From Macrocybe gigantea (Eukaryota > Basidiomycota > Agaricomycetes > Agaricales > Callistosporiaceae), in contig SJRY01000225.1 of NCBI GenBank assembly GCA_011319805.1, forward strand, positions 124,001 through 188,000: a stretch of 64,000 nucleotides of DNA, written 5' to 3'. The position numbers and the translations under genes were made by a program. Below the pieces are notes generated by a model. It made no database searches, had not been told where the DNA came from, and worked only from the letters and a program-made list of their open reading frames with translations. Shown here piece after piece: positions 396-63,125 of this stretch (position 1 is the stretch's first letter; the number at the start of each line of letters is the position of its first letter).

Positions 396-407
396 TTTAG
401 ACAGTTC

Positions 408-421: not shown

Positions 422-824
422 TGTTAGAAATGCCCCTTCTGTCCGGACTTGTGCATAGGACAGGACCCAGGCTATGCACCTAGCAATGCACACAGCCTAT
501 GGCTGTGTGCGCAGCAATGCACAGCCTGTGGCTGCGTCCGCAGCAATGCACAGCACAAGCTGTGCACGCAGTAATGCGCAGTAAATGGCTGTGTCCGCAG
601 CAGTGCACAGCCTACAGCTGTGCCCGCAGCAATGCGCAGCCATAGGCTGCGCACACAGCCTTCTACACGTATATATAGATAGCACAGAGCACCTTGAAGT
701 CCCCAGTGTTCTCACTCAGGACTTCTAGGCAAGTACTTGTACATAACTCAATTACTAGTGTTCTCACTCAGGACTTCTAGGTTCTAAGGCTCGTTCAGAG
801 TGTTCCCTGTGCCTAGTTTTAACA
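422..824 (+). mobile_element. Copia 3' LTR, full length (403 bp)
   Basis: The LTR begins TGTTAGAAATG and ends CTAGTTTTAACA, the same termini as the two identical 403-bp LTRs at 37703-38105 and 42853-43255 (reverse orientation there). It contains an array of about five imperfect 37-bp units at roughly 475-655, a TATA-like TATATATAG near 670, and two direct copies of TTCTCACTCAGGACTTCTAG further on. It inserted into LINE-A sequence: the next base starts the minus-strand LINE at 825. The matching 5' LTR is outside the window. Confidence 0.93.
475..660 (+). repeat. Tandem palindromic array inside copia LTR U3
   Basis: About five units of roughly 37 bp carry the core GCAGCAATGC(G/A)CAGCC followed by its near-complement GGCTGYGY. 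Each unit can therefore fold back, and neighbouring units can pair. The array lies upstream of the TATA-like box, where enhancers of LTR promoters sit. It recurs in every copia LTR here (3950-4100, 29060-29210, 37865-38055, 43018-43205). ORFs over it (Cys/Ala/Leu-rich) are repeat artefacts. Confidence 0.75.
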
Positions 825-1213
825 GATTTCTCACTGTAGATGGGTCGCCCCCAGCTGAAGCGGGCGTACTGATTGATCTGAGAGCATGTCTTAGATTGGA
901 ATTGGCGAGGCGGGCAGAGGACCCGACTTTCAACCTTTTGATGAACCCGCCGATAGGTTCGACACAGGCCATTGTCTCAGCCGCACCCTCGGGAGTGGTG
1001 CAAAACTGTCCATTGATCCAAATGCAAGCTTTACGCTGCATCTGGTGTAATTGTTTCAACAGTGCGACGTTATGCATGCCATTGAAGTTCCATAATAAAC
1101 AGCCATACGTTGCGATCAGACACGCGCATGACAGGTAGAGGATGCGCTTCTGTTGAGGGGATAAGCCTCGGACAGAGTTGCCTAACATCTGAAAGGCTCT
1201 GGCCGTAGTCAGG
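825..1213 (-). pseudogene. LINE-A ORF2 fragment, RT thumb/connector region
   Basis: The minus strand encodes MLGNSVRGLSPQQKRILYL and continues through WNFNGMHNVALLKQL and TPEGAAETMACVEPIGGF, matching the region after the RT palm in the longer LINE-A copies (for example 6790-7165 on the minus strand). The high-coordinate end is fused to the T-element end at 1214, and the low-coordinate end is cut by the copia LTR at 825. It is the LINE part of a T-element/LINE chimera whose poly(A) end lies outside the window. Confidence 0.85.
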
Positions 1214-2143
1214 CGAAGTTTAGCCCCCCCCTTGCGGGGGAGGCTACTAGCCCAGGCCCAGTCCTGTGATCGGACCGTTTAGCCCAGGAGCTTCGCACTC
1301 CGGCTTCAACTTAAGCAGTTACCTGGTTGTATTAGTCCAGGGTCTACCGACAGAGGAGTTAGGTCTCTCGAGCCAAGGACTGGAGACTGTCCAGCCTCGC
1401 TACAGCCCAGCGGTGTCCGGGTCACTACTCCGTGCCTGCCTTCCCATCCCTCAGCAGATGGTTCGCAGATGCATCATCCCCATCTGTCCAAGGTCTCTGT
1501 CTTGCCACATGCCTCCCACACTGGCATCCGATATCACAGCAAGGTCCATGGTCCTCCCATGACAGGTTCCCACAGGGAAAGCCCTTACTGAACGGGTCTG
1601 GATCTGCTTCCGCCTTTGGCGTACTGCACGTGACTAACCATCTTGTGATCATTGCCAATGGCTCCCACTTAGACCGGGTACCCTGTTGGCTCAAACGCCA
1701 TCGGGTGGTTATCAGGTCCTTCCCGGTATGGTCCCTTATCCTTTCGGCCCCTACCTTTTAAGATCGGGGATCACGTGTGGTCTGCCGGATTAAGGCATTG
1801 TCCGGCACTTACATTCCAAGGCCATCCACGCCAAGGGAAACCCGGTCACGTGAGTTAGGGTCATGTGACACTTGACCCACATGGTGGGGTAAGTCACATG
1901 TGTGACGCATAACCTAGCTTACATCACGTGCCAGTTGCTTAGTCATATGACCAAGTCACCTCCCTCATGGGAACAACTGTCACAGGGTCATGATACTTCC
2001 TGCCCACGTCACGTGGAACCAGCTCCGGACACTTCCGGATGCAAACCTGAAGATGCCACCTCCAGGACTAGAACTCGTGGCTTCGTGGCTTGCCACAGCC
2101 ACAGGACTACCTGACTCGCATTTACCGCTATGCCAACCAGCCC
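1214..2143 (-). mobile_element. T-element (tRNA-headed non-coding repeat), short variant
   Basis: On the minus strand it starts with GGGCTGGTTGGCATAGCGG (2143 downward), which contains a match to the tRNA A box, followed by a B-box-like GGTTCTAGTCC. It ends with a GC hairpin and CTAAACTTCG at 1214. It lacks about 270 bp present in the 1.2-kb copies at 8628 and 24972. No credible ORF is conserved between copies. Its 3' end is joined in the same orientation to LINE-A at 1213. Its head abuts LINE-B at 2144. Confidence 0.8.
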
Positions 2144-8627: not shown

Positions 8628-8629
8628 AA

Positions 8630-8715
8630 GGGCTGGTTGGCATAGCGGTAAACGCGAGTCAGGTAGTCCTGTGGCTGTGGCAAGCCACGAAGCCGCGGGT
8701 TCTAGTCCTGGAGGT
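8630..8715 (+). other. tRNA-like head of T-element with A- and B-box motifs
   Basis: TGGCATAGCGG at about 8637-8647 fits the RNA polymerase III A-box consensus TRGCNNAGYNGG. About 55 bp downstream, GGTTCTAGTCC differs from the B-box consensus GGTTCRANNCC at one position. The spacing fits a tRNA gene. The remaining cloverleaf is not clearly foldable, so this is a tRNA-derived promoter rather than a functional tRNA gene. The same head is present at 24975, 61799 and, on the minus strand, at 2143, 26904 and 29055. Confidence 0.6.
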
Positions 8716-9794
8716 AGCATCTTCAGGTTTGCATTCGGAAGTGTCCGGAGCTGGTTCCACGTGACGCGGGCAGGAAGTATCACGACCCTGTGACAGTTGT
8801 TCCCATGAGGGAGGTGACTTGGTCATGTGACTAAGCAGCTGGCACGTGACGTAAGCTGGGTTATGCGTCACACATGTGACTTACCCCACTATGTGGGTCA
8901 AGTGTCACATGACCCTAACTCACGTGCAAGCACGTGATCCCCGATCTAAAAGTGTAGGGGCCGAAAGGATAAGGGATTATACCGGGAATTGGGCTGATAA
9001 CCACCCGATGGCGTTTGAGCCAACAGGGCACCCGGTACCGTGTGAGCTGCCTGAAGTAGGGGTCCACGGAGGTTAGTCATGGCGCAGTACGCTTTGGCGG
9101 AAGTAGATCCAGACCCGTTCAGCTAAGGGCTTCCCCTGTGGGAACCTGTCATGGGAGGACCATGGACCTTGCTGTGATATCGGAGGCCAGTCTGGCAGGC
9201 ACATGGCAAGACAGAGACCTTGGACAGATGGGGATCCGCGCCCTAAGGGGCATCAGCGAACCATCTGCCAGAGGACGGGAAGGCAGGACTGGGGGTCGCG
9301 CCCCAGACACCGCTGGGCCGTAGCAAGGCTGGACAGTCTCCAGTCCTTGGCTCGAGAGACCTAACTCCTCTGTTGGTGGCCCTGGGATAATACACCCAGG
9401 TTGCCGCTTAAGTTGAATCCGAAGTGCGAACTCCTGGGTTCCGTGGGACTCTGGGGACCCCAGTGTGTAGGTGAAAGTCCATGCCGACCTACTTGGCAGG
9501 CTTAAACGGTTCCCCTTGGCGTGGATGGCCTTGGGGTGCAAGTGTCGGACAAAAAGCCTTAATCCAGCAGACCGCAGCTGAGTAAGACGGTACCATCCCT
9601 GAGTCCACACCCAATTTGGGGAGGCCTCGGCCGTTGGCAAGGGGGGTCCGCAGACCAAATAGGGAGGGCATAAGCCTGACGGATGCACACTGGACCCACA
9701 TAAGGAGTCCTAGGTTAAGGGTTCCCCTGGGCGTGGATGGCCCTGGGGTGAAAGTGCTGGACAATAGCCTTAATCTGGCAGACCCACCTAGGTA

Positions 9795-9828
9795 GCAGCC
9801 TCCCCCGCAAGGGGGGGGCTAAACTTCG
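9795..9828 (+). other. T-element 3' hairpin with GCAA loop, at LINE fusion point
   Basis: AGCCTCCCCCGCAAGGGGGG followed by GGCTAAACTTCG can form a GC-rich stem closed by a GCAA (GNRA-type) tetraloop, with only about ten bases after it. Every T-element copy with an intact 3' end stops at this same CTAAACTTCG (or CTTCA in one copy), and LINE sequence follows. Confidence 0.65.
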
Positions 9829-9895
9829 CCTCTCGACCCCCTGCTCCTTCCCCCTCGGGGACAGGAGCCTTCTCTTCCAAAGCGGCGACGGTCTA

Positions 9896-11612
9896 ATGGA
9901 TACCGACGACGCTGGCCCCTCGAATCGAACTGGGTCTACCGAACCCCCCGTTCCTCCATCTCCGTCGATGCTGTCCACGGAGGCAGCTTATAACGACAAT
10001 TCTATCGGTATTGCGATCTTTCCCAAAGGGCATCGGTTCCTTCATGGTGAAGCGAAGGCCGCCACCGAATCCCTCACCGCCCTTAAGGATTGGATCCTCA
10101 AGGTCGGCAAAGCATCTGTCTCCATCCCGGCGGGCTACCAATATGCCATCGCTGAGGGTATTGCGGCCTTGGTCGCTACTGCTGGCGATGTTAACATGTT
10201 CTCCGTCCCTACTCTTCAGGGACCTCAGCATGAACTCGGAGCACGCTTGCAGAGTATTGTGAATGCGCACCTTCCCTTGCGCGGGAAATCAACTCGCTTT
10301 GCCGATCCCACCACTCATCACTCCCCCTCTGGTACAGTGCGACCGGAGGACTCACGTTCGAATCAGGGCGCCCCGCCGCCGAGACCGGCTCGGAACCCAA
10401 ACTGCCCTCCTCCACCCCCTCGCGTGCGATCTCGTTCCCGGACTCCTGGACGTGGACCGCCTCCTCCGGTCAATAGGGCTACTCGCCCATCTTCCGGTAA
10501 GCGCTCCTATGCGCAAGCTCTGGCCCAACCGGCCAACACTCCTGCCGAGGCTATTGTAGCCCTGGCAAAAACATTCCCACACCTCCCGCAGAGAAGATTG
10601 TCTCCTTGCAAAAGGAAGCAACCGGGGAGCCGTCTGGACCACCTAAGAAGAAGGCAAAGTCCACTTCTCACGGACCGTCCCGTCGTAACGTCCGGGTCAG
10701 TTACTCTTTTCTGGCTGACAACGACTCTGTTGCCGCCGGAGCTCTCCTTAATGCCCTTAATAGGGTGTTGACCACTGGTAAGTCCTGGATTCGATGCGAA
10801 TCTATCCAGGATCATTCTGCCTCCTCGTTCTCTTGCTTGATGACAAGGGTGGCTTCTCCGAAGGACCTCAGCATTTTGCGTGAGGCCGCTCTCCGCTGTG
10901 CTCCGGCAGGATCTACTGTCGAGCTTGCAATCCCGATGAGCGTTTCTTATTTGAAACTGCTCGACGTTCCCTATTTCAATGCCGATGGTAGTATTATCAC
11001 TGCCCGGCAGGCTTACGAGATTCTCCGAGACTCCTCCTTCTCGGATCTCATTACTCTCATTGGGGTACTGCGTGTCATGCGCAACTCCAAGAATTCTGAT
11101 ACTGCAACCGTCTGGTTCAACATCGAAGACACGTCAACTGGCCAGAATGTAAAGGCTCTGGACAATTGTACAGTTATGGTCAGGAATTGGCGTTGCCGAT
11201 TCAAGGCCGCTCTCTCTTCGCCAGGAGTTCCTCTTTGCGAACGCTGCTGGCGCTGGGGGCACTCTGCGTTGAAGTGCAACCAGCAATCTCTCCGCTGTCC
11301 GATCTGTGGGGAATCTCACAGAAAGGAACACCATCGCACCTGGCGTCTTGCTGTAAGGCTCGACCCAAGGCTAACCCTCCTCGTGAGGCTACTCCGGTGG
11401 GCCAGCCCTGCCCTCATCCTCCTAAATGTCTCAGCTGCAGCCGAGACCACTCCACCGACGACCGGAAGTGTCCCTTCTGGAAAAATCGCTTTGATCCAGA
11501 TTGGATCAAGGAACACTATAAGCTGGTACGTGATCGCAAACGATCAGGTAGCAATCATCCTAATGCCTCCCGCAGCGTAATGCGGAGGCCGACGCATCAT
11601 GAGTGTCTCCTC
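9896..11612 (+). pseudogene. LINE-A ORF1 (Gag-like, zinc knuckles), frameshifted
   Basis: The frame from MDTDDAGPSN at 9896 is open to about 10585, then continues in another frame from QKEATGEPSGPPKKKAKS (about 10603) to 11338, and in a third frame afterwards. The protein has a Pro/Arg-rich middle, a basic PKKKAKS stretch that may be a nuclear localisation signal, and three Cys/His clusters (CERCWRWGHSALKC, CPICGESH, CLSCSRDHSTDDRKC). These are typical of RNA-binding ORF1 proteins of Tad/I-like LINEs. The last frame runs past the usual end because of a further indel near 11575. It overlaps ORF2 at 11599. Confidence 0.88.
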
Positions 11613-14600
11613 GGGTAGCACAGCCTCGGCTGTGGTCCCCGGTTCAAGGGGACGCTCATTGATCTCTTCTTTTCGTATTTTCTCTCAGAACGTAAATAGA
11701 AAATATGTACATATGGACATGCTCCTCTCTACTCTTGGGAGGATTATGATATTTTGTTTTTCCAAGAGCCCACTTGGAATCTCATAAGACATGCCCCATC
11801 TGCCCACAATGTTGAGGGCGAGGCAGTAATCGGAGGTCCCACCCATCCGGATTGGACCTGCATCGTTCGCCGATCATCGCTCAGGACCCTCCTCGAGTCA
11901 TGGCCTATGTACATAATAGGCTTCGTCGCCTACGTCCATCCCTTCGTCGCGACTTAGTTGATAGCCGCGATCTTATGATTATCAGCTTCGCCACCCCTGG
12001 TGAGCCACTCTTTCTTGCTAACGCCTACTCTGATGTAGATGCTAGTGCGATTCATCTTTTGCATGATTGTGCTGAGCACCCCGACTTCCCCAACTTAGTT
12101 TATCTTGGAGGGGATTTCAATTGTCATTATGAACTCTGGGATAGGTTCATAATTCGCAGCGGTTCGAGGGGAGATGCTGTGTAATGCAGCTCTTGATCTC
12201 GGTCTGGAATGGTCGGAACCTAGCAATCCTGGGCCGACATTCATTTCACATAACCCCGAGCTTCGGCCCTCGGTTATTGACTTGATGTTCATCCCATTGA
12301 TAGTGGGGATTGCCATCCTCGCATGATTGATGCGCTCAAGCTGACATTGGACCATGTCCCATTGTCACTTGTATTGGATGTTCCTCTGCTGGACCTATCC
12401 GTCCAGCGGCGAACGTTAAGTAAGGACAGCATGCCGGAGTTTATATCCGATATTGCCGGTGATCTTCTCGGAATGGACATTGTCCCTATCGAGACTAATA
12501 ACGACCTCGAGAGCGTCTTGTCGACACTATCAAAGGCCATTGATCGAGCTTGGAATCTCCACTCTAAGGAATGCAAGCTCTCAAAACGGAGCAAGGGTTG
12601 GTGGAACCAACACTGCTCTGAGACTCTTGATACTTTCAGACAAACCCGGTCTGAAAGAGATCATCGCATCTGGTGGCGAGCTGTCAAAGATGCTAAGCGC
12701 GCCTTCTTTGATCAACGGATCAGGGAGGTTGCAGAAAAGTCTCGTCGTCCATGGGATCTAGCTGCATGGACAAAGCAGAGACCCCTACCTGATTACGAAG
12801 CTATCTCGTTCCAGGGACAGCCTTGTAATTCTATCGAAGCGCTTTGGAATGCGCTTGATAAGTCTTATAATGCTGCATCTGATCGCACAGTTAATTTGGA
12901 TCGCCTCAACGATCTTGAAGCGCATCCAGTACAGGACTGGGTCCCGTTCTCTGCTACTGAGCTCCGAGAGTCCTTAGAGCCCTGTAGCAATACGTCGGCA
13001 CCAGGACCAGACCATCTGTCTTGGAGCCACATCAAACAGCTGGTGAAATTTCCTCACATAGCTGCATTCATCTTGAACATTGCAAATGCATGTCTAGATT
13101 TGGGGCACTGGCCCTCTTACTTCAAGCAGAGTTTGTCGGTTATCATTCCGAAACCTGGCAAACCTGCATACGATACCCCGAAAGCCTTTCGTCCGATTGT
13201 GCTTTTGAATACCCTCGGCAAGCTCGTCGAGAAGATGCTGGCGTGACGTATGCAGTACGAAGCGACCAAATTTGCTGTCTTCGATCCGAAGCAGTTCGGC
13301 GGCATCCGTCAGAACTCAACTGAGGATGCTGGGGTCTTCCTTACCCATATTATCCGTCAGGGGTGGTCTAAGGGATTCAAAACGAGTGTCATCGCTTTCG
13401 ATGTCGCTCAGTATTTTCCTTCACTCAACCATCGTATGTTGGTGAAGATTCTTCAACACGGAGGCTTTGCACGACAGGTGTCAAAGTTCTTTGAATCATA
13501 TCTCGTTGGGCGCAAAACTTCCTATGCCTGGCGTAGTGCCATTTCTCCAGAGTTCGATGCCGACGTGGGAGTTGGTCAAGGCTCTGCACTCTCCCCAGTA
13601 TTGTCAGCGCTTTACTTGGTGCCAGTACTGAAACTTTATCAGAAAGCTGGTGATATGCCAGTAATCATGTCATTCGTCGATGACGGACTGATCATCGCTC
13701 AGTCCAAATCCACATCGGACAATGTTCCGAAACTGCAGAGGGCTTATGCCTCTGTGCATAACCTCTTCACTGACTTTGGTCTTGTTCTAGAACACAACAA
13801 GACTGAATTACAGCACTTTTCGCGCAATAGTATGGACCCTCATCCGTCTATTGACTTGGGTTTTGCTCCATTTACAGGCAATACCCCGCTTCGACCCAAG
13901 GATGTCTGGCGATACCTTGGTTTCTTTTTGGACGCGTGCCTTTCTTTTAAGGAGCATGTTCGATTCTATGCTACGAAGGCCTTGACTACCGCCAGGGCCT
14001 TCCAAATGTTGGGCAATTCTGTTCGGGGCTTATCCCCTCAACAAAAACGCATTCTCTACTTGTCGTGCGCACGTCCCATCGCAACGTACAGCTGTTTATT
14101 GTGGAACTTCAATGGCATGCATAATGTCGCACTGTTGAAACAACTACGCCAAATGCAGCATGAAGCATGCATTTGGATTAATGGACAGTTTCGCACCACT
14201 CCTGAGGGTGCAGCTGAGATGATGGCCTGTGTCGAACCTATCGGCGGGTTCATCAAAAGGTTGAAAGTCGGTCCTCTGCCCACCTCGCCAATTCCAATCT
14301 AAGACATGCTCTCAGATTAATCAGTACGCCTGCCTCAGCTGGGGGTGACCCATCTAAAGTGAGAAATCTCACTGCTCTATCAGACAGGCAGTGGTCTGTG
14401 CTCAAGTCCCCTCTCAAGGATCTGGTGGATCTGAAACCACCACTCTTTTTAACCACGGATTATTTTGCTGATGCAAATAACCCGGGCAGGCGGCTTGTCG
14501 ATGAGTTTGGCAGTCGCTTTGAGATCCATAAGTTACTTGGCCGAGACGAGGAATCGGTCAAGGCTTACCGCGCATCGCTGGATCAAACACTTTCCCAGTG

Positions 14601-15501
14601 TTCGATCCAGCATGATTGCTCTTATGTGAGTAGTGATGGCTCCGTGCCTGCGAAAGCAGAAGTGCCACTTAAGCAGTCTGTGTCAGCTTCGCATGTTTAT
14701 CGTGAGGGCAGGCTGGTCTCCGAGATTTGTCAGCCAGTTGGTAAATCAACGAGCGACGATGCTGAGCTCATTGGGTTGCGAATGGCAATCCAAAAGGCTA
14801 TCACACAAGATGGAGTTAATTCTGTTGTGTGCTTTTTGGATTCGATGAATGCAATTAATCGCATCATCGATTGCAACCCTCACTCTGTGCAGTCGCATTC
14901 TATTGCACTTTGTGCATCACTGAAAGCTTGGCTCTCTGAGTCCGAGCAACGCCGGATTGAATTCTGACACATCCCTTCCAAATGGAAGTGGGCAATACAA
15001 GTCGAGGCTCACGAGCTTGCCCGGAGCCTGGATGTTCCCCTGGGACGTCGTCCCCTCTATACCACCGATGGCCTTCGAAAGGAGGCTGACGATGATATGC
15101 ATAGCACTTGGTTCCAGAATTCTGGGAACAAGAAATACATTGGTGCTTCCACATTTCGTTTTCACGAAGCAGGAAAGCCAAATTCCTATGAACGCCCCTC
15201 TCGGAAGAGAACGGGCTTCATGAAGTTAGTGACAGAGAACGAGCTTTTTGCTCGCTGTGCACGACTTGCATGCGGCCACGCCCCGATCAATGCGTATCGG
15301 GCACGGTTTAATTTTGTGGAGAGCGACTTATGCTCTTGCGGACAAGGGCCGGAAGACTCCGTCCACGTCATGACTCAGTGCCGCAACTGGCACAGGCCAA
15401 CCGAATGCCAGTTCAACACATTTGTGTGTCACTGGTTTATTAAGTACCTCGCATCCAACAAGGTGGCAGGAGCTTTTATCCCGGATCCAGGTGGCGAGTG
15501 A
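11599..15501 (+). pseudogene. LINE-A ORF2 (endonuclease, RT, RNase H), multiply broken
   Basis: The ATG at 11599 is followed by the endonuclease (SQNVNRKYVHMDMLLSTLG, YLGGDFNCHYELWD), with a frameshift near 11743 and others later. RT occupies about 12890-14300 (FDVAQYFPSLNHRM, GVGQGSALSP, FVDDGLI), broken by TGA at 13244-13246. RNase H occupies about 14360-14970 (YVSSDGSVPAKAE), ending at a TGA at about 14967, and the C-terminal VESDLCSCGQGPED region ends at 15501. The two TGA codons at 13244 and about 14967 are also present at the matching places of the opposite arm. Confidence 0.9.
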
Positions 15502-15896
15502 CTGCCACTCTGTAGCAGAGATTACCCGGGGCAACCTAGGCAATCTTTAGGCAGTAGGACCAGCGACCGAAGCACTGATCGAGCATTATGCGAACCGCAA
15601 ACTTTGCGACAGCATCCGTTATAGGTCCTTTTGGACCTTTTACGTGGAATTGACCACAACCGGCCCCTCGGGGCTGGGGGACGGTGCTCAAGCAAGCGAG
15701 TATGCACGAGCTCGGGTCTTTTAGCTCGAGCCGGGGCACGAGAGAGCAGGGCACTGTAGCCCTCTATGTATTTTCCTTCAGTCTGGTTTGGATCGGACTC
15801 ATCGTATTTATAGTAGGTACCTGTGTGTATTTACAAGTGGACTGCCAGTGTGCACCGCTATATAAATTGTTGATTTAAAAAAAAAAAAAAAAAAAA

Positions 15897-17708: not shown

Positions 17709-18123
17709 TACAGTACCCTACAATAAGTTTTGCAACATGTAAATAAATAAAAACACATCCTCGAAAGAATTAGTTTCTACACAAGAACAAGTCTATGATA
17801 GTCCAATCTAATACTTAGTAGGCCCTCCTTGGACCTTAAGGACTGCTTCTACTCTGCTAGGCATGTTTCTAACTAAATTATTTACCAATTCCAAGTCCAA
17901 TTTTTGCCACTCCTCCTGAAGTGCCTCCCATAATTCCTCCAGATTTTGAGGTATAACTAGCCTGCTGTTGATCCTACTTTTGAGCAGGATCCAAATATGT
18001 TCAATAGGATTGAGGTCTGGAGACTGTGCTGGATGGGGGAGAATGACCATTTGCTGATTTGTGCACCATTCTTTTGCAGCCTTGCATCGGTGAACTGGAG
18101 CCCCATCTTCCATGACTGCTACT
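17709..18123 (-). pseudogene. Tc1/mariner-like element, 3' half with terminal repeat
   Basis: On the minus strand the frame MEDGAPVHRCKAAKEW (second catalytic Asp) continues to HPAQSPDLNPIEHIWILLK (third acidic residue in the PIE motif) and ends at 17808. A terminal repeat follows, CAGTACCCTACAATAAGTTT at 17711 on the plus strand, next to the TA at 17709-17710. The same terminal repeat starts at 63897. The coding half begins exactly at the 13-base TSD1 and is the continuation of 4268-4593. Confidence 0.85.
18111..18123 (-). other. Target-site duplication TSD1, copy b (inverted)
   Basis: CATGACTGCTACT, exact reverse complement of 4581-4593. It is followed directly by the poly(T) of the minus-strand LINE-A. 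Confidence 0.8.
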
Positions 18124-18518
18124 TTTTTTTTTTTTTTTTTTTAAAATCAACAATTTATATAGCAGTGCACGCTGGCAGTCCGCTTGTAAATACACACCGG
18201 TACCTACTATAAATACGATGAGTCCGATCCAAACCAGACTGAAGGAAAATACATAGAGGGCTACAGTGCCCTGCTCTCTCGTGCCCCGGCTCGAGCTAAA
18301 AGACCCGAGCTCGTGCATACTCGCTTGCTTGAGCACCGTCCCCCAGCCCCGAGGGGCCGGTTGTGGTCAATTCCACGTAAAAGGTCCAAAAGGACCTATA
18401 ACGGATGCTGTCGCAAAGTTTGCGGTTCGCATAATGCTCGATCAGTGCTTCGGTCGCTGGTCCTACTGCCTAAAGATTGCCTAGGTTGCCCCGGGTAATC
18501 TCTGCTACAGAGTGGCAG

Positions 18519-21500
18519 TCACTCGCCACCTGGATCCGGGATAAAAGCTCCTGCCACCTTGTTGGATGCGAGGTACTTAATAAACCAGTGACACACAAAT
18601 GTGTTGAACTGGCATTCGGTTGGCCTGTGCCAGTTGCGGCACTGAGTCATGACGTGGACGGAGTCTTCCGGCCCTTGTCCGCAAGAGCATAAGTCGCTCT
18701 CCACAAAATTAAACCGTGCCCGATACGCATTGATCGGGGCGTGGCCGCATGCAAGTCGTGCACAGCGAGCAAAAAGCTCGTTCTCTGTCACTAACTTCAT
18801 GAAGCCCGTTCTCTTCCGAGAGGGGCGTTCATAGGAATTTGGCTTTCCTGCTTCGTGAAAACGAAATGTGGAAGCACCAATGTATTTCTTGTTCCCAGAA
18901 TTCTGGAACCAAGTGCTATGCATATCATCGTCAGCCTCCTTTCGAAGGCCATCGGTGGTATAGAGGGGACGACGTCCCAGGGGAACATCCAGGCTCCGGG
19001 CAAGCTCGTGAGCCTCGACTTGTATTGCCCACTTCCATTTGGAAGGGATGTGTCAGAATTCAATCCGGCGTTGCTCGGACTCAGAGAGCCAAGCTTTCAG
19101 TGATGCACAAAGTGCAATAGAATGCGACTGCACAGAGTGAGGGTTGCAATCGATGATGCGATTAATTGCATTCATCGAATCCAAAAAGCACACACAGAAT
19201 TAACTCCATCTTGTGTGATAGCCTTTTGGATTGCCATTCGCAACCCAATGAGCTCAGCATCGTCGCTCGTTGATTTACCAACTGGCTGACAAATCTCGGA
19301 GACCAGCCTGCCCTCACGATAAACATGCGAAGCTGACACAGACTGCTTAAGTGGCACTTCTGCTTTCGCAGGCACGGAGCCATCACTACTCACATAAGAG
19401 CAATCATGCTGGATCGAACACTGGGAAAGTGTTTGATCCAGCGATGCGCGGTAAGCCTTGACCGATTCCTCGTCTCGGCCAAGTAACTTATGGATCTCAA
19501 AGCGACTGCCAAACTCATCGACAAGCCGCCTGCCCGGGTTATTTGCATCAGCAAAATAATCCGTGGTTAAAAAGAGTGGTGGTTTCAGATCCACCAGATC
19601 CTTGAGAGGGGACTTGAGCACAGACCACTGCCTGTCTGATAGAGCAGTGAGATTTCTCACTTTAGATGGGTCACCCCCAGCTGAGGCAGGCGTACTGATT
19701 AATCTGAGAGCATGTCTTAGATTGGAATTGGCGAGGTGGGCAGAGGACCCGACTTTCAACCTTTTGATGAACCCGCCGATAGGTTCGACACAGGCCATCA
19801 TCTCAGCTGCACCCTCAGGAGTGGTGCGAAACTGTCCATTAATCCAAATGCATGCTTCATGCTGCATTTGGCGTAGTTGTTTCAACAGTGCGACATTATG
19901 CATGCCATTGAAGTTCCACAATAAACAGCTGTACGTTGCGATGGGACGTGCGCACGACAAGTAGAGAATGCGTTTTTGTTGAGGGGATAAGCCCCGAACA
20001 GAATTGCCCAACATTTGGAAGGCCCTGGCGGTAGTCAAGGCCTTCGTAGCATAGAATCGAACATGCTCCTTAAAAGAAAGGCACGCGTCCAAAAAGAAAC
20101 CAAGGTATCGCCAGACATCCTTGGGTCGAAGCGGGGTATTGCCTGTAAATGGAGCAAAACCCAAGTCAATAGACGGATGAGGGTCCATACTATTGCGCGA
20201 AAAGTGCTGTAATTCAGTCTTGTTGTGTTCTAGAACAAGACCAAAGTCAGTGAAGAGGTTATGCACAGAGGCATAAGCCCTCTGCAGTTTCGGAACATTG
20301 TCCGATGTGGATTTGGACTGAGCGATGATCAGTCCGTCATCGACGAATGACATGATTACTGGCATATCACCAGCTTTCTGATAAAGTTTCAGTACTGGCA
20401 CCAAGTAAAGCGCTGACAATACTGGGGAGAGTGCAGAGCCTTGACCAACTCCCACGTCGGCATCGAACTCTGGAGAAATGGCACTACGCCAGGCATAGGA
20501 AGTTTTGCGCCCAACGAGATATGATTCAAAGAACTTTGACACCTGTCGTGCAAAGCCTCCGTGTTGAAGAATCTTCACCAACATACGATGGTTGAGTGAA
20601 GGAAAATACTGAGCGACATCGAAAGCGATGACACTCGTTTTGAATCCCTTAGACCACCCCTGACGGATAATATGGGTAAGGAAGACCCCAGCATCCTCAG
20701 TTGAGTTCTGACGGATGCCGCCGAACTGCTTCGGATCGAAGACAGCAAATTTGGTCGCTTCGTACTGCATACGTCACGCCAGCATCTTCTCGACGAGCTT
20801 GCCGAGGGTATTCAAAAGCACAATCGGACGAAAGGCTTTCGGGGTATCGTATGCAGGTTTGCCAGGTTTCGGAATGATAACCGACAAACTCTGCTTGAAG
20901 TAAGAGGGCCAGTGCCCCAAATCTAGACATGCATTTGCAATGTTCAAGATGAATGCAGCTATGTGAGGAAATTTCACCAGCTGTTTGATGTGGCTCCAAG
21001 ACAGATGGTCTGGTCCTGGTGCCGACGTATTGCTACAGGGCTCTAAGGACTCTCGGAGCTCAGTAGCAGAGAACGGGACCCAGTCCTGTACTGGATGCGC
21101 TTCAAGATCGTTGAGGCGATCCAAATTAACTGTGCGATCAGATGCAGCATTATAAGACTTATCAAGCACATTCCAAAGCGCTTCGATAGAATTACAAGGC
21201 TGTCCCTGGAACGAGATAGCTTCGTAATCAGGTAGGGGTCTCTGCTTTGTCCATGCAGCTAGATCCCATGGACGACGAGACTTTTCTGCAACCTCCCTGA
21301 TCCGTTGATCAAAGAAGGCGCGCTTAGCATCTTTGACAGCTCGCCACCAGATGCGATGATCTCTTTCAGACCGGGTTTGTCTGAAAGTATCAAGAGTCTC
21401 AGAGCAGTGTTGGTTCCACCAACCCTTGCTCCGTTTTGAGAGCTTGCATTCCTTAGAGTGGAGATTCCAAGCTCGATCAATGGCCTTTGATAGTGTCGAC

Positions 21501-22424
21501 AAGACGCTCTCGAGGTCGTTATTAGTCTCGATAGGGACAATGTCCATTCCGAGAAGATCACCGGCAATATCGGATATAAACTCCGGCATGCTGTCCTTAC
21601 TTAACGTTCGCCGCTGGACGGATAGGTCCAGCAGAGGAACATCCAATACAAGTGACAATGGGACATGGTCCAATGTCAGCTTGAGCGCATCAATCATGCG
21701 AGGATGGCAATCCCCACTATCAATGGGGATGAACATCAAGTCAATAACCGAGGGCCGAAGCTCGGGGTTATGTGAAATGAATGTCGGCCCAGGATTGCTA
21801 GGTTCCGACCATTCCAGACCGAGATCAAGAGCTGCATTACACAGCATCTCCCCTCGAACCGCTGCGAATTATGAACCCTATCCCAGAGTTCATAATGACA
21901 ATTGAAATCCCCTCCAAGATAAACTAAGTTGGGGAAGTCGGGGTGCTCAGCACAATCATGCAAAAGATGAATCGCACTAGCATCTACATCAGAGTAGGCG
22001 TTAGCGAGAAAGAGTGGCTCGCCAGGGGTGGCGAAGCTGATAATCATAAGATCGCGGCTATCAACTAAGTCGCGACGAAGGGATGGACGTAGGCGACGAA
22101 GCCTATTATGTACATAGGCCATGACTCGAGGAGGTCCTCGAGCGATGATCAGCGAACGATGCAGGTCCAATCCGGATGAGTGGGACCTCCGATTACTGCC
22201 TCGCCCTCAACATTGTGGGCAGAAGGGGCATGTCTTATGAGATTCCAAGCGGGCTCTTGGAAAAACAAAATATCATAATCCTCTCCAAGAGTAGAGAGGA
22301 GCATGTCCATATGTACATATTTTCTATTTACATTCTGAGAGAAAATACGAAAAGAAGAAATCAATGAGCGTCCCCTTGAACCGGGGACCACAGCCGAGGC
22401 TGTGCTACCCGAGGAGACACTCAT
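18519..22424 (-). pseudogene. LINE-A ORF2, multiply broken
   Basis: The start is at 22424 (MSVSSGSTASAVVPGSRGRS). The endonuclease is open to about 22150 and continues after a frameshift (YLGGDFNCHYELWD near 21900). The linker/RT is open from 21847 to 20774, stopped by TGA at 20774-20776. RT and most of RNase H are open from 20770 to about 19190 (FVDDGLI, YVSSDGSVPAKAE), where two missing bases relative to the other arm shift the frame. The C-terminal part is open from 18923 to 18519. Shared nonsense codons with the left arm suggest copying between arms. Confidence 0.9.
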
Positions 22425-24273
22425 GATGCGTCGGCCTCCGCATTACGCTGCGGGGAGGCATTAGGATGATTGCTACCTGATCGTTTGCGATCACGTACCA
22501 GCTTATAGTGTTCCTTGATCCAATCTGGATCAAAGCGATTTTTCCAGAAGGGACACTTCCGGTCGTCAGTGGAATGGTCTTGGCTGCAGCTGAGACACTT
22601 AGGAGGATGAGGGCAGGGCTGGCCCGCCGGAGTAGCCTGCGAGGAGGGTTAGCCTTGGGTCGAGCCTTGCAGCAAGACGCCAGGGTGCGATGGTGTTCCT
22701 TTCTGTGAGATTCCCCACAGATCGGGCAGCGGAGAGATTGCTGGTTGCACTTCAATGCAGAGTGCCCCCAGCGCCAGCAGCGTTCACAAAGAGGAACTCC
22801 CGGCGAAGAGAGAGCGGCCTTGAATCGGCAACGCCAATTCCTGACCATAACTGTACAATTGTCCAGAGCCTTTACGTTCTGGCCAGTTGACGTGTCTTCG
22901 ATGTTGAACCAGACGGTTGCAGTATCGGAATTCTTGGAGTTGCGCATGACACGCGGTACCCCAACGAGAGTAATGAGATCTGAGAAGGAAGAGTCTGGAG
23001 AATCTCGTAAGCCTGCCGGGCAGTGATAATGCTACCATCGGCATTGAAATAGGGAACGTCGAGCAGTTTCAAATAAGAAACGCTCGTCGGGATTGCGAGC
23101 TCGACAGTAGATCCTGCCGGAGCACAGCGGAGAGCGGCCTCATGCAAAATGCTGAGATCTTTCGGAGAAGCCACCCTCGTCATCAAGCAAGAGAACGAGG
23201 AGGCGGAATGATCCTGGATAGATTCGCATCGAATCCAGGACTTGCCAGTGGTCAATGCCCTATTAAGGGCATTAAGGAGAGCTCCGGTGGCAACAGAATC
23301 GTTGTCAGCCGGAAAAGAGTAACTGACCCGGACGTTACGACAGGACGGTCCGTGAGACGTGGACTTCGCCTTCTTCTTAGGTGGTCCAGACGGCTCCCCG
23401 GTTGCTTCCTTTTGCAGGAGACAATCTTCTCTGCGGGGAGGTGTGGGAATGTCTTTGCCAGGGCTACAATAGCCTCGGCAGGAGTGTTGGCCGGTTGGGC
23501 CAGAGCTTGCGCATAGGAGCGCTTACCGGAAGATGGGCGAGTAGCCCTATTGACCGGAGGAGGCGGTCCACGTCCAGGAGTCCGGGAACGAGATCGCGCG
23601 CGGGGGTGGAGGAGGGCGGTTTGGGTTCCAAGCCGGTCTCGGAGGCGGGGTGCCCTGGTTCAAACATGAGTCCTCCGGTCGCACTGTACCAGAGGGGGAG
23701 TGATGAGTGGCGGGATCGGCAAAGCGAGTTGATTTCCCGCGCGAGGGAAGGTGCGCATTTACAATACTCTGCAAGCACGCTCCGAGTTCATGCTGAGGTC
23801 CCTGAAGAGTAGGGACAGAGAACATGTTAACATCGCCAGCAGTAGCGAGGCCACAATACCCTCAGCGATGGCATACTGGTAGCCCGCCGGGATGGAGACA
23901 GATGCTTTGCCGACCTTGAGGATCCAATCCTTAAGGGCGGCGAGGGACTCGGTGGCGGCCTTCGCTTCACCATGAAGGAACCGATGCCCTTTGGGAAAGA
24001 TCGCAATACCGATAGAATTGTTGTTATAAGCTGCCTCCGTGGACAGCATCGACGGAGATGGAGGAACGGGGGGTTCGGTAGACCCAGTCCGATTCGAGGG
24101 ACCAGCATTGTCGGTATCCATTAAACTGTCACCGCCTTGGAAGAGAAGGCTCCTGTCCCCCGAGGGGGAGGAGCGGAGGGTCGAGAGGGGCCCGCGGGGG
24201 TCCGCCCAGGGTGCGGATTTAGCGGTGGAGGCCCACCGCTGCCAACAATGTTGAGCGGATCGTCGCTCATTGA
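22421..24273 (-). pseudogene. LINE-A ORF1 (Gag-like, zinc knuckles), frameshifted
   Basis: It begins at about 24273 with MSDDPLNIVGSGGPPPLN. An extra G in a G-run near 24160 shifts the frame, and MDTDNAGPSNRTGSTEPP (24121) restarts it. Further shifts lie near 23860, 23600, 23430, 23000 and 22650. The zinc-knuckle region reads CERCWRWGHSALKC and CPICGESH near 22700-22800. Same protein family as 47537-49402. Confidence 0.85.
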
Positions 24274-24462
24274 AAGACTCTAATAAATCGGTGGATTTTC
24301 AGCCGATTTTCGCGATTTTAAGAACGGGGAGTGCTCAAGGATATAGGTATCCGGATCTGCAACCTGATCTAAGATCGTCCCAAGTGTTGTCGCCATAGAA
24401 CGAGGAGTGCGATTTGCGAGAGTTGTTTACAGTTGTTTACAAGTGGGGGTTGTGGAAAGAGA

Positions 24463-24971
24463 CGAAGTTTAGCCCCCCCCTTGCGGGGGAGGCTGCTAGC
24501 CCAGGCCCAGTCCTATGATTGGACCATTTAGCCCAGGAGCTTCACACTCCGGCTTCAACTTAAGCAGTTACCTGGTTGTATTAGTCCAGGGTCCACTGAC
24601 AGAGGAGTTAGGTCTCTCGAGCCAAGGACTGGAGACTGTCCAGCCTTGCTACGGCCCAGCGGTGTCCGGGCGCTACCCACATGCCTGCCTTCCCGTCCTC
24701 CAGCAGATGGTTCGCTGATGCCCTTAGGCGCGGATCCCCATCTGTCCAAAGTCTCTGTCTTGCCACGTGCCTCCCAGACTGGCATCCGATATCACAGCAA
24801 GGTCCATGGTCCTCCCATGACAGGTTCCCACAGGGGAAGCCCTTACTGAACGGGTCTGGATCTGCTTCTGCCTTTGGCATACTGCACATGACTAACCATC
24901 TCGTGATCATTGCCAACAGCTCCCACTTAGACTGGGTACCCTGTTGGCTCAAACGCCATCAGGTGGTTATC
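24463..24971 (-). mobile_element. T-element 3' part, split by a later insertion
   Basis: Minus-strand T-element from GATAACCACCTGA (24971-24959) to CTAAACTTCG at 24463, joined to the 5' end of the minus-strand LINE-A. Its head half lies at 26461-26904. The break is the insertion of the 24972-26460 unit, flanked by the 13-bp duplication TCAGGTGGTTATC. Confidence 0.88.
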
Positions 24972-26460
24972 TAAGGGCTGGTTGGCATAGCGGTAAACGC
25001 GAGTCAGGTAGTCCTGTGGCTGTGGCAAGCCACGAAGCCGCGGGTTCTAGTCCTGGAGGTAGCATCTTCAGGTTTGCATTCGGAAGTGTCCGGAGCTGGT
25101 TCCACGTGACGCGGGCAGGAAGTATCACGACCCTGTGACAGTTGTTCCCACGAGGGAGGTGACTTGGTCATGTGACTAAGCAGCTGGCACGTGACGTAAG
25201 CTGGGTTATGCGTCACACATGTGACTTACCCCACTATGTGGGTCAAGTGTCACATGACCCTAACTCACGTGCAAGCACGTGATCCCCGATCTAAAAGTGT
25301 AGGGGCCGAAAGGATAAGGGATTATACCGGGAATTGGGCTGATAACCACCCGATGGCATTTGAGCCAACAGGGCACCCGGTACCGTGTGAGCTGCCTGAA
25401 GTAGGGGTCCACGGAGGTTAGTCATGGCGCAGTATGCTTTGGCGGAAGTAGATCCAGACCCGTTCAGCTAAGGGCTTCCCCTGTGGGAACCTGTCATGGG
25501 AGGACCATGGACCTTGCTGTGATATCGGAGGCCAGTCTGGCAGGCACATGGCAAGACAGAGACCTTGGACAGATGGGGATCCGCGCCCTAAGGGGCATCA
25601 GCGAACCATCTGCCAGAGGACGGGAAGGCAGGACTGGGGGTCGCGCCCCAGACACCGCTGGGCCGTAGCAAGGCTGGACAGTCTCCAGTCCTTGGCTCGA
25701 GAGACCTAACTCCTCTGTCGGTGGCCCTGGGATAATACACCCAGGTTGCCGCTTAAGTTGAATCCGAAGTGCGAACTCCTGGGTTCCGTGGGACTCTGGG
25801 GACCCCAGTGTGTAGGTGAAAGTCCATGCCGACCTACTTGGCAGGCTTAAACGGTTCCCCTTGGCGTGGATGGCCTTGGGGTGCAAGTGTCGGACAAAAA
25901 GCCTTAATCCGGCAGACCGCAGCTGAGTAAGATGGTACCATCCCTGAGTCCACACCCAATTTGGGGAGGCCTCGGCCGTTGGCAAGGGGGGGTCCGCAGA
26001 CCAAATAGAGAGGGCGTAAGCCCGACGGATGCACACTGGACCCACATAAGGAGTCCTAGGTTAAGGGTTCCCCTGGGCGTGGATGGCCCTGGGGTGAAAG
26101 TGCTGGACAATAGCCTTAATCTGGCAGACCCACCTAGGTAGCAGCCTCCCCTGCAAGGGGGGGGCTAAACTTCGTCCGTTATAGGTCCTTTTGGACCTTT
26201 TACGTGGAATTGACCACAACCGGCCCCTCGGGGCTGGGGGACGGTGCTCAAGCAAGCGAGTATGCACGAGCTCGGGTCTTTTAGCTCGAGCCGGGGCACG
26301 AGAGAGCAGGGCACTGTAGCCCTCTATGTATTTTCCTTCAGTCTGGTTTGGATCGGACTCGTCGTATTTATAGTAGGTACCCGTGTGTATTTACAAGCGG
26401 ACTGCCACCGTGCACCGCTATATAAATTGTTGATTTAAAAAAAAAAAAAAAAAAAAAAAA
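24972..26460 (+). mobile_element. T-element/LINE-A chimeric retrocopy with 13-bp target-site duplication
   Basis: The unit consists of a full T-element (24972-26174) joined directly to the last 286 bp of LINE-A (26175-26460: TCCGTTATAGG through the 3' UTR to poly(A)). TCAGGTGGTTATC occurs at 24959-24971 and again at 26461-26473, a perfect 13-bp duplication, so T-element and LINE tail entered as one molecule. There is no coding capacity. The tail supplies the sequence a LINE protein would recognise; the head supplies A/B-box motifs. Confidence 0.9.
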
Positions 26461-26904
26461 TCAGGTGGTTATCAGCCTAATTCCCGGTATGGTCCCTTAT
26501 CCTTTTGGCCCCTACCTTTTAAGATCGGGGATCACATGTGGTCTGCCGGATTAAGGCATTGTCCAGCACTTACATCCCAAGGCCATCCACGCCAAGGGAA
26601 ACCCGGTCACGTGAGTTAGGGTCATGTGACACTTGACCCACATAGTGGGGTAAGTCACATGTGTGACGCATAACCCAGCTTACGTCACATGCCAGCTGCT
26701 TAGTCACATGACCAAGTCACCTCCCTCGTGGGAACAACTGTCACAGGGTCGTAATACTTTCTGCCCGCGTCACGTGGAACCAGCTCCGGACACTTCCGGA
26801 TGCAAACCTGAAGATACCACCTCCAGGACTAGAACCCACGGCTTCGTGGCTTGCCACAGCCACAGGACTACCTGACTTGCGTTTACCGCTATGCCAACCA
26901 GCCC
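26461..26904 (-). mobile_element. T-element head half (split copy)
   Basis: Minus-strand continuation of 24463-24971. The tRNA-like head GGGCTGGTTGGCATAGCGG starts at 26904, next to TSD2 at 26905-26919. Together with 24463-24971 and LINE-A 18124-24462 it forms one original insertion. Confidence 0.85.
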
Positions 26905-28265
26905 TTTCCAAGTGCCAGCTTGAGCCCAACTGTGTATACACCAGTAGTGATGGCGCCGTGCCCACGAAAGTGGATGCACTTAGACAATCCGTATATTCGT
27001 CCTGGGTCTACCGAGGCAATACGCTTGTATTTGAAACTCGCCAGCCTGTCGGCAAAGCAACAAGCAATGACTCTGAGCTGATTGGATTGCGTATGTCAAT
27101 CCAAAAGGCTATTGCACAGGATGGAGCTACATCCATCGTATGCTTCCTCGATTCAATGACTGCAATCAATCACATTATCGATTGCAATCCTCACTCTGTG
27201 CAGTCGCATTCTATTGCACTGTGCACCTCATTGCAGGCTTGGTTTGCCCAGTCCGAGCTGCACCAGATTACATTCTGGCACGTCCCCTCCTCTTGGAAGT
27301 GGGCTATCCAAGTTGAAGCGCACAAGTCAGCACGTGGCCTCGACATTCCTCAGGAACTTCATCCCTTCTATACCACTGATGCACTCCATAAAGAGGCGGA
27401 TGATGATATGCATGCCTCTTAGTTCCACAACTCTGGAATCAAGAAATACATTAGCACTTCCACATTTCGATTCCATGATGCTGGAAAGCCTGAGTCCTAT
27501 GAGCACCTGCTTCATAAAAGAACGGGTTTCATGAAGTTGGTGACAGGTAACGAGCTGTTCACTCGCTGCTGTCACGTCGCATGCAGGCATGTGCCGATCA
27601 ATGCATATCGAGCACGGTTCAACTTCGCTGAGAGTGATCAATGCTCATGCAGACGGGGTCCTGAGGACTCTGTCCACACTATGACTCTGTGCTGTAACTG
27701 GAACAGACCAACCGAACACCAGTATGATGCCTTTGTGCATTCCTGGTTTGTTAAGTACCTAACATCGAATAAGGCAGCAGGTGCTTTTATCCTGGATCTG
27801 GGGGGCGGGTAACTGCCTCTTTGCAGTGGGGGATACTTAGGGTTATGGCTCCTTGCGGGCCTTTGCGCAGAAGCAACTGCAGCTGGCCTTCAGGCTGGGG
27901 GATCCAGAGCATCAATTCAATATGGTGTTGGATGAAAGCAAACACTGAGCTTTATTGCAGATCGCAGACTCTGTGATACCTGTCGTTATGGGCCCTTTTG
28001 GACCCTTTGCATAGAACTGACCATGTCCGGCTCCTAGGAGTTGGGGGACACAGGCCGAATGGGCAAGTCAGCGCAGGTGTGAGCATGAGTAGCTCAGGCA
28101 CGGGCACGAGAGAACAGGGTTAGTATGCCCTCCATGTACATCTCCTCAGTCTGGGCTTTTTGGACTAGTTGTATTTATTGTAGATATCTGTGTGTACTTA
28201 CAAGCGGACTGCCATTGAGCACCGCTATATAAATTGTTGATTTAAAAAAAAAAAAAAAAAAAAAA
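26905..28265 (+). pseudogene. LINE-B RNase H/C-terminal part, 3' UTR and poly(A)
   Basis: It starts at TSD2 (26905-26919). The open frame reads through VYTSSDGAVPTKVDALRQSV, SELIGLRMSIQKAIAQDG and FLDSMTAINHIIDCN (RNase H) to a TAG at 27420-27422, where related copies have Trp. The next frame, 27531-27812, holds the C-terminal AESDQCSCRRGPED region. The 3' UTR follows, ending with CCGCTATATAAATTGTTGAT and poly(A) (28243-28265), an end shared with LINE-A. Its upstream neighbour is the inverted piece at 15912-16204. Confidence 0.87.
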
Positions 28266-35924: not shown

Positions 35925-36046
35925 ACTCGTAGCTCGTACTTTTGTTAACAATACCAGGGCAAGTGCTGACAGGCCATTGTGTATAATGCCGATGACTTTA
36001 TGATAATAACAATTGTAATATATGCCAGACAGATAGAGAAGGAGAT
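35925..36046 (+). repeat. KDZ element left terminal inverted repeat
   Basis: About 120 bp matching the reverse complement of 57612-57733 with scattered substitutions. Conserved blocks include TAATGCCGATGACTTTATGA and TAACAATTGTAAT. Confidence 0.85.
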
Positions 36047-38119: not shown

Positions 38120-38131
38120 GAACTGTCTAAA

Positions 38132-60908: not shown

Positions 60909-61796
60909 CTTGGCCTGTTGGCAAAGCGACAAGTGATGATTCTGAGCTGATTGGATTGTATATGTCAATCCAAATGGCCATCATACAGGATGGAGTTATA
61001 TCCATTGTGTGTTTCCTTGACTCGATGAATGTAATTAACCACATTGTCAATTGCAACCCCCACTCTGCACAGTTGTATTCCATTGCTCTGTGCACTTCAT
61101 TGCATGCTTGGCTCACCCAATCTGAGCAGCACCAGATTACGCTCTGGCATGTCCCTTCCTAGTGGAAGTAGGCTATTCAGGTCGAAGCACACCAATCTGT
61201 GCATAGGCTCAACGTTCCTTAGGGACCTCATCCTCTTTATACCATGGATATACTCTGCAAGGAGGCAGATAATGATATGCATGCCTCTTGATTCCATGAT
61301 TCCAGAATCAAGAAATATATTGGTGCCTCCACATTTCATTTTTATAATGCAGGAAAGCCGGAGTCCTATGAGCACCCCCTTCACAAAAGAACAGGCTTTA
61401 TGAAGTTGGTGACAGGCAATGAGCTATATGCTCAGTGCTGTCGCATTGCTTGCAGCCATGCTCCAATCAATGTGTATCGAGCATGGTTCAATTTTGTAAA
61501 GAGCGATGAGTGCTCATATGGATGAGGTCCTGAAGACTCCATCCATGTTATGACTCTGTACAGTAACTGAAACAGGCCAACTGAACACCAGTATAATGGC
61601 TTTGTACACTCCTGGTTTATTAAGTACCTTACATTGAACAAGATGGCAGGTGCTTTCATCCTGGATCTGGGGGGTGGGTAACTGCCCTTTCATAGTAGGG
61701 GATCCACTGGGTTATGGCTCCTCACAGGGCCTTTGCACGGAAGTAACCACAGCCAGCCTTTGGACTGCAGAACCTAGAGCATCAAGTCAGTAGGGT
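60909..61796 (+). pseudogene. LINE-B RNase H and C-terminal region, degenerate
   Basis: Begins at CCTGTTGGCAAAGCGACAAG (RNase H) and reads DSELIGLYMSIQMAIIQDG, FLDSMNVINHIVNCNPHS and LWHVPS, with stops at 61160 and later. The C-terminal KSDECSYG cluster has lost a Cys. The 3' UTR starts near 61680 and is interrupted at 61796 by the T-element/LINE chimera, resuming at 63126. Confidence 0.8.
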
Positions 61797-63083
61797 AAGG
61801 GCTGGTTGGCATAGCAGTAAAACGTAGTCAGGTAGTCCTGTGGATGTGGCAATCCATGAAGCCGTGGGTTCTAGTCTGGAGGTAGCATCTTTAGGTTTGC
61901 ATTCAGAAGTGTCCGGAGCTGGTTCCATGTGACATGGGCAGGAAGTATCACGACCCTGTGACAGTTGTTCCCACGAGGGAGGTGACTTGGTCATGTGACT
62001 AAGCAGCTGGCACGTGACATAAGCTGGGTTATGCATCACACATGTGACTTACCCCACTATATGGGTCAAGTATCACATGACCCTAACTCACACGCTTGCA
62101 TGTGATCCCCGATCTAAAAGTATAGGGGCTGAAAGGATAAGGGACTATACTGGGAATTGGGCTGATAACCATCTGATAGTGTTTGAGCCAACAGGGCACC
62201 TGGTACCATGTGAGCCACCTGAAGTAGGGGTCCATGGAGGTTAGTCATGACGCAGTATGCTTCGGCGGAAGTAGATCCAGACCCGTTCAGCTAAGGGCTT
62301 CCCCTGTGGGAACCTGTCATGGGAGGACCATGGACCTTGCTGTGATATTGGAAGCCAGTCTGGCAGGCACATGGCAAGACAGAGACCTTGGACAGATGGG
62401 GATCCACACCCTAAGGGGCATCAGCGAACCATCTGCCAGGGGATGGGAAGGCAGGACTGGGGATCGTGCCCTAGACACCGCTGGACCATAGCAAGGCTGA
62501 ACAGTCTCCAGTCTTCAGCTCAAAAGACCTAACTCCTCTGTCAGTGGCCCTAGGATAATACACCCAGGTCGCTGCTTAAGTTGAATCTGAAGTGTGAACT
62601 CCTGGGTTCTGTGGGACTCTGGGGACCCCAGTGTGTAGGTGAAAGTCCATGCTAACCTACTTGACAGGCTTAAATGGTTCCCCTTGGCGTGGATGGCCTT
62701 GGAGTGCAAGTGTTGGACAAAGCCTTAATCCGGCAGACCGCAGCTGAGTAAGACGGTACCATCCCTGAGTCCACACCCAATTTTGGAGAGGCCTCAGCCA
62801 TTGGCAAGGAGGGGTCTGCAGACCAAATAGGGAGGGCATAAGCCTGATGGATGCACACTGGACCCATATAAGGAGTCCTAGGTTAAGAGTTCTCCTGGGC
62901 GTGGATGGCCCTGGGGTGAGAGTGCTGGACAATAGCCTTAATCCGGCAGACCCACCTGGGTAGCAGCCTCTTCCGCAAGGGGGGGCTAAACTTCATGTTT
63001 GTCTTGGACTCATCGTATTTATGGTAGATACCTTGGTGTATTTACGAGCAGACTGCCACTGTGCACCGCTATATAAATTGTTC

Positions 63084-63125
<42 letters not shown>
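61797..63125 (+). mobile_element. T-element/LINE chimeric retrocopy with 11-bp target-site duplication
   Basis: A full T-element (61797-62995, ending CTAAACTTCA) is joined to the last 130 bp of a LINE 3' UTR and a long poly(A) (62996-63125). The flanks GTCAGTAGGGT (61786-61796) and GTCAGTGGGGT (63126-63136) form an 11-bp duplication with one transition. The LINE joint (TGTTTGTCTTGGACTC) is at a different LINE position from that of the 24972-26460 unit, while the T-element joint is the same. It inserted in the LINE-B 3' UTR. Confidence 0.88.

Follow-up and report, generated by a model that had tools for sequence, protein, structure and literature searches.

At the locus described here, a 1.2-kb non-coding element that we call T runs directly into the 3' end of a LINE (LINE-A), which raises two questions: did both parts arrive in one insertion, and if so, by which step were they joined? 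The locus lies in a 64,000-nucleotide stretch of genomic DNA, analysed in full and referred to as the window. An earlier reading made from the letters alone (the sequence-only reading) had claimed a perfect 13-bp target-site duplication (TSD) around the unit, and this duplication, TCAGGTGGTTATC, is indeed exact at 24959-24971 and 26461-26473; the chance of an exact 13-mer at one fixed place is ~1.5e-8. The same reading had placed the insertion site inside another T copy whose halves show the uninterrupted target. Consistently, the two halves together with one copy of the TSD align with the T2 copy at 5287-4590 at 97.3% and with 0 gaps (alignment within the window), and with 1211-2143 at 92.8% and 12 gap positions. 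Since an exact TSD surrounds both parts and the rejoined target is gapless, T and the LINE tail were inserted together, as had been proposed. The described LINE tail of 286 bp plus poly(A) was right as to its direct joint with T, but these 286 bp (26175-26460) already contain the A-run. The target is a T2 variant, whose body resembles that of T1 at ~87%. This T2 copy runs in turn into a near-full-length LINE-A (24462 down to 18123), which was used unchanged as the reference copy and is without the GCT found at the start of seven T-less full-length copies. The features concerned are collected in Table 1.

Table 1. Positions of the T-LINE-A chimera, of its target and of related units in the window
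Feature	Position	Strand	Remark
5' copy of the 13-bp TSD	24959..24971	.	exact match to 26461-26473
T element (T1), complete 1203-bp non-coding unit	24972..26174	+	near-identical full copies elsewhere in the genome
A-box-like TGGCATAGCGG, T head	24983..24993	+	by eye; no tRNA call by ARAGORN or Rfam
B-box-like GGTTCTAGTCC, T head	25043..25053	+	by eye; 1 base off the consensus
Conserved T 3' end: hairpin, then short single-stranded tail ending CUUCG	26143..26174	+	common to T1 and T3
LINE-A 3' end, from reference-copy position 6058	26175..26436	+	
Poly(A)	26437..26460	+	
3' copy of the TSD	26461..26473	.	directly after poly(A)
Target: antisense T2 copy, 3' half, one TSD copy included	24463..24971	-	
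Target: 5' half of the same antisense T2 copy	26461..26906	-	
LINE-A copy joined to the target T2	18123..24462	-	used unchanged as LINE-A reference
Second T1-LINE-A chimera	8628..15896	+	T 8628-9828; LINE from reference position 275 (L005)
Third T-LINE-A chimera, older	61796..63111	+	T 61796-62994; LINE from ~reference position 6228
T2-LINE chimera	824..2143	-	T2 2143 down to 1213, then LINE-A (~position 4424) to 824

Elsewhere in the window, at 5286/5287, the poly(T) of an antisense LINE-A begins exactly at a T2 3' end, and no duplication was seen there; beyond that antisense LINE-A (8402/8403), a sense LINE picks up at 8403, at ~reference position 5932. A Copia-type LTR element (37703-43256) is apparently a recent insertion; its two 404-bp LTRs (37703-38106, 42853-43256) are identical, and a single open frame of 1413 codons holds gag, integrase and reverse transcriptase domains. 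Furthermore, two related short-tandem-repeat blocks, at 36044-36564 and 57072-57621, lie in opposite orientation.

When T copies were tabulated through the genome (41.2 Mb, 333 contigs), as the sequence-only reading had suggested, all 30 near-complete copies, taken as the best matches to the T query and fetched with their flanks, were found to run directly and in sense into LINE-A, with LINE starts from 141 to 6231 of the 6340-bp reference copy. T itself was complete in nearly every case: the start lies in the first 5 bases in 29 of the 30 and at base 35 in the remaining one, all reach base 1199-1203, and all end in CTAAACTTCG, with the last bases altered in four. A search with 15 bases of this 3' end, allowing at most one mismatch, gave 87 places, and the reversed control gave 2; collapsing the near-duplicates L073 and L093 left 85 distinct junctions, 84 of which lead straight into a sense LINE or into a separate element, U. 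The single exception is split by an antisense LINE-A; the partners of the 84 are LINE-A (61, namely 60 by best hit plus one with a later best hit whose first 110 bases are sense LINE-A), LINE-B-type elements (14, of which two show only 38 bp of LINE and then other sequence including an LTR element) and U (nine). A T that ends alone at CTTCG with its own TSD, named by the sequence-only reading as a refuting outcome, was not found, and none of the 85 distinct T 3' ends is free-standing. One-base differences are present in 28 of the 87 T 3' ends, mostly CTTCG to CTTCA or CTTTG, a change expected from CpG decay by methylation or RIP-like mutation.

As the 85 junctions were baited by the T 3' end, they cannot alone demonstrate the constancy of that end. 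A view independent of it is given by 40 T heads (first 300 bases as query), for 38 of which a T 3' end lies on the same strand within 1.4 kb; the other two are the interrupted target copy of the window and one that was not fetched. Seen from the LINE side, 16 of 40 LINE-A tails examined are preceded by a T 3' end on the same strand, at most 6.4 kb upstream, from 14 different T ends, two of which each serve two LINE-A tails (script count).

These data bear on a competing explanation, in which T serves LINE-A as a 5' UTR or promoter and the short copies are internal deletions. Such a role would account for the T2 copy standing before a near-full-length LINE-A (24463/24462), but seven full-length LINE-A copies begin at the same base without T, the 71 junctions mappable on LINE-A form 56 position groups rather than one complete LINE 5' end, and T3 joins U as well. 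The varied LINE starts and the T-less full-length LINEs refute this explanation, which we consider very improbable.

If T is joined to LINEs at many positions, are these positions arbitrary? For each junction, the bases lost before the joint were read from the closest relative extending upstream, and the motif count omits five of the 85 (two lacking a donor, one whose donor is itself a junction, one antisense poly(T) and one at the LINE start). The lost triplet was G-Y-Y (GYY) in 48 of the 80 usable joints (GCC 20, GCT 17, GTC 10, GTT 1), and a G stood at -3 in 66; the remaining triplets include GGC (8) and GGA (5). Restricting the count to high-confidence joints (donor identity of at least 90% and exact start, n=49) gave GYY in 34 and G at -3 in 45, with 0-7 of 49 at other offsets. 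At unique sites among them, GYY amounts to 31/46 vs a LINE-A background of 6.3% (p=1e-26), under a definition of GYY that was set after viewing the data and covers the triplets of the 2007 Magnaporthe table except one (AGC). Furthermore, the seven full-length T-less LINE-A copies all begin GCT-TCTCTTTCC, at the same base, and the T2 copy at 24463 joins directly after that GCT; thus, even at a distance of 3-4 bases from the LINE start, the rule is obeyed. More than one hit was counted in eleven position groups, in some of them from LINEs that differ widely in their identity to LINE-A, for instance at 4939 (70 and 96%) and at 4670/4671 (74 to 94%). Near-copies of one chimera may explain some of these recurrent sites.

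Several other candidate rules were tried and rejected. Codon phase is not reflected, as the 26 joints inside 2595-5290 split 10, 9 and 7 over the three phases; a spliceosomal acceptor would leave AG before the joint (0/80), and end bases shared with T would leave CG there (1/80). Group I-like reverse splicing, for which T ends in a suitable G and a GGGC near the T 5' end might pair with GYY, found no support in Rfam, and the lack of any pairing-like signal beyond -3, except for a mild T excess at -4 (33/80), speaks against it.

The same triplets might simply be places where the LINE reverse transcriptase stalls, with any stall leading to capture of T. This is the explanation, together with hairpins, given by Gogvadze et al. 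(2007), who described the junction rule in one fungus, attributed it to pausing of the enzyme, and, in the text available to us, refer to mammalian truncation sites as random (PMC2104539). The occurrence of the same triplets in two different fungal LINEs is in line with stalling, as is the recurrence of some sites even in LINEs just 70-76% like LINE-A. LINE-A copies truncated without T provide a control. From 40 LINE-A tails, 14 of which were first judged T-linked by eye, 20 of the other 26 were fetched; eight of these begin outside the fetched sequence, one carries T (L121) and one a T head (L119), leaving ten. The latter two are T copies joined to a LINE without the T 3' end and also without GYY, L119 retaining T head ~1-300 at 649-975 and L121 a T3 that is ~36 bases short, on the antisense strand, at 1-122. 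In the ten T-less copies, the triplets before the LINE start are AGT, TTT, AGT, GGC, ATT, ATC, CAC, GCA, TTC and GAA. GYY is therefore present in 0/10 and G at -3 in 3/10, vs 34 and 45 of the 49 high-confidence joints (Fisher p=5e-5 for GYY), in a control of n=10 whose ends are perhaps shaped or re-selected by target pairing and some of which are perhaps later rearrangements. Partial TSDs were recognized by eye in five of the ten (L110, L111, L126, L127, L128), three of which a script found as well. In addition, predicted pairing at 43 joint sites was no different from that at 120 control GYY sites (lowest p 0.06), which also counts against stalling at hairpins. Small as it is, the T-less control weakens the pausing view, and because GYY is absent from its ten truncations, the G-Y-Y rule seems tied more to joining than to a general pausing of the reverse transcriptase. 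We consider stalling as the sole explanation improbable.

Chimeric retroelements of this kind have a precedent in the MINEs, of which Fudal et al. (2005) is reportedly the first account. As described in the accessible parts of the 2007 paper, the WEIRD-MGL MINEs of Magnaporthe grisea share with the T chimeras a full-length non-coding 5' part of ~1.1-1.2 kb, a 5'-truncated LINE 3' part in the same orientation, TSDs, a lost triplet GCC/GCT/GTC (with GCC as the consensus before the switch), recurrent sites and the lack of a solo 5' part (PMC2104539). Even the third partner corresponds, being a SINE there (Mg-SINE) and the SINE-like U here, so that the WEIRD-MgSINE chimera (PMC2104539) has its parallel in the nine T-U fusions. 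Given the same architecture and the lost-triplet rule, the comparison with WEIRD/MGL drawn by the sequence-only reading holds, and the T-LINE chimeras are a counterpart of the MINEs in an Agaricales-like genome, WEIRD and T being likened by architecture. The two systems nevertheless differ in several respects. First, another LINE is involved, as 13/13 published MGL junction strings are absent from LINE-A (PMC2104539) and an identity of LINE-A with MGL is thus not supported. Second, T occurs in several variants with a possibly tRNA-like head and a shared 3' tail, whereas the portions of the 2007 paper at hand mention no tRNA. Third, the base after the joint is A/U in Magnaporthe (PMC2104539), a preference that is not seen here, where this base is mixed (T 30, C 25, A 13, G 12; n=80). 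Our literature search for a basidiomycete counterpart or for fungal SINE/LINE chimeras, with most subscription papers outside its scope, returned only the Magnaporthe papers and animal work. Among the latter, the mammalian U6/LINE-1 chimeras likewise consist of a non-coding RNA in full length followed by a truncated LINE of the same orientation, with TSDs (PMC13174262, PMC4476161). U6 is a cellular snRNA, however, and against the random truncation sites described for mammals (PMC2104539), the T chimeras follow a three-base rule.

We therefore read the window unit as a MINE-type chimeric retroelement made by the LINE machinery, with a probability of roughly 0.9 that does not include the joining sub-step. 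LINE-A copies encode an Exo_endo_phos_2 endonuclease and an RVT_1 reverse transcriptase, with an RVT_3 match below the cut-off; among protein relatives with a source name, those of Candolleomyces efflorescens (44% over 96%) and C. aberdarensis come closest, and a Pol-like protein of Tricholoma matsutake shows 57% over 57%, on which grounds we call the genome Agaricales-like. Poly(A) and TSDs in several copies, not in all, mark the insertions as LINE-type. The LINE 3' end could be seen in 14 T-LINE copies. Four of these have exact TSDs of at least 11 bp, namely L001 (13 bp, the window chimera), L015 (15), L018 (16, counting one A adjoining the poly(A)) and L020 (11), and two have imperfect ones (L028, 15 with two mismatches; L009, TSD-like with one indel, by eye). 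L013 is ambiguous, its candidate lying in poly(A), and no clear TSD was seen in L004, L011, L012, L017, L021, L026 and L029. TSDs within the 10-20 bp typical of MINEs are thus present, and the eight of 14 copies in which they are ambiguous or absent count against a chimera made by the LINE machinery, as do L119 and L121 with their LINE joints that lack both the T 3' end and GYY.

In our model, a T RNA whose 3' end is defined by a hairpin and the following UAAACUUCG would be joined head to tail to a 5'-truncated LINE-A RNA. The LINE machinery would copy the product from the poly(A) and insert it by target-primed reverse transcription. A T RNA ending at CUUCG presumably exists, and the LINE protein would be the actor that captures it. 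The joining itself may occur when the LINE reverse transcriptase jumps end to end, just before G-Y-Y, onto the 3' end of the T RNA; such a template jump, to which we give about even odds, is favoured by the T2 joint that lies 3-4 bases from the LINE start and by the absence of known ribozymes or nucleases. Of the template switching named by the sequence-only reading, the LINE-type insertion stands, and the switch is one of two candidate joining steps, the other being a joining of the RNAs before reverse transcription. In the latter case, a cut in the LINE (or U) RNA, or an attack on it, after G-Y-Y would set free a 3' piece, ligation or trans-esterification would link this piece to the T 3' end, and the LINE machinery would then copy the fused RNA. 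The absence of GYY from the ten T-less truncations fits such an order of events, as does the exactness of the joints, since 64 of the 80 usable ones align from the first base and no clear case of extra inserted bases was recognized by eye at the others. Moreover, jumping of the R2 reverse transcriptase needs non-templated addition and chimeras in human LINE-1 assays stem from pre-ligation, according to the part of that work available to us (PMC8857657), and RNA ligation is listed beside template switching for U6/LINE-1 in the passages seen (PMC13174262). However, no known ribozyme or intron was matched by Rfam in 24972-26500 up to E=10, and the T2 joint so close to the LINE start would be odd for an endonuclease. 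Folding of the T body is no better than that of shuffles (z=-0.8), that of the T head is somewhat better (z=-2.6), and covariation in T is weak and stems partly from unrelated aligned stretches. We regard joining before reverse transcription as the main alternative to a jump, possible rather than probable.

The T variants share a 3' tail. T2 has its body arranged differently and T3 carries another 3' module, and over the last ~36 bases T1 agrees with T2 at 97% and with the T3 copy L129 at 89%. Among 20 listed T3 copies, four (L129, L132, L139, L150) differ from the others upstream and look 5'-cut by eye. U is a separate element of ~1.1 kb, whose head carries the A/B-box-like TAGCCTAGTGG and GGTTCGATTCC, the latter at the place matching the B-box-like stretch of T. 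The resemblance in T was noticed by eye, with no tRNA call by ARAGORN or Rfam, and the tRNA-like head of U is cleaner, although ARAGORN found no tRNA in U and Rfam gave only a sub-threshold tmRNA/tRNA-clan match at the B-box arm. The Pol III-like head of T named by the sequence-only reading is therefore a candidate feature, based on this box resemblance and on the cleaner head of U. U and T share a ~80-bp stretch (T 578-655, ~80%), and T3 is among the T forms to which U is joined. The 3' end of U consists of a hairpin with a sequence unlike that of T, followed by the same TAAACTTCG, after which both copies read there (L030, L131; ~90% alike) show an identical LINE-A joint; a further copy, L046, is partial. 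By its sequence, U looks like a SINE with a LINE tail, in keeping with tRNA-derived SINEs, which combine a tRNA-like head with a LINE-derived 3' end. T differs from these in its length of 1.2 kb and in having no fixed 3' tail of its own for retrotransposition, the LINE part differing from copy to copy.

As a wider and rather doubtful hypothesis, the T-family 3' end (hairpin and UAAACUUCG) might be joined to LINE-type RNAs at G-Y-Y by a sequence-specific RNA-RNA reaction resembling trans-splicing. The same reaction would then make the Magnaporthe MINEs, would predate the split of Ascomycota and Basidiomycota, and would provide tRNA-headed RNAs with the LINE tails that turn them into SINEs, as U suggests. 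Irrespective of this, the recurrence of these triplets in an Agaricales-like genome, and there in another LINE, suggests that a biochemical step is shared, and the small T-less control favours joining over stalling. With 84 natural joints, two LINE subfamilies and U at hand, the origin of the LINE tails of SINEs becomes directly testable.
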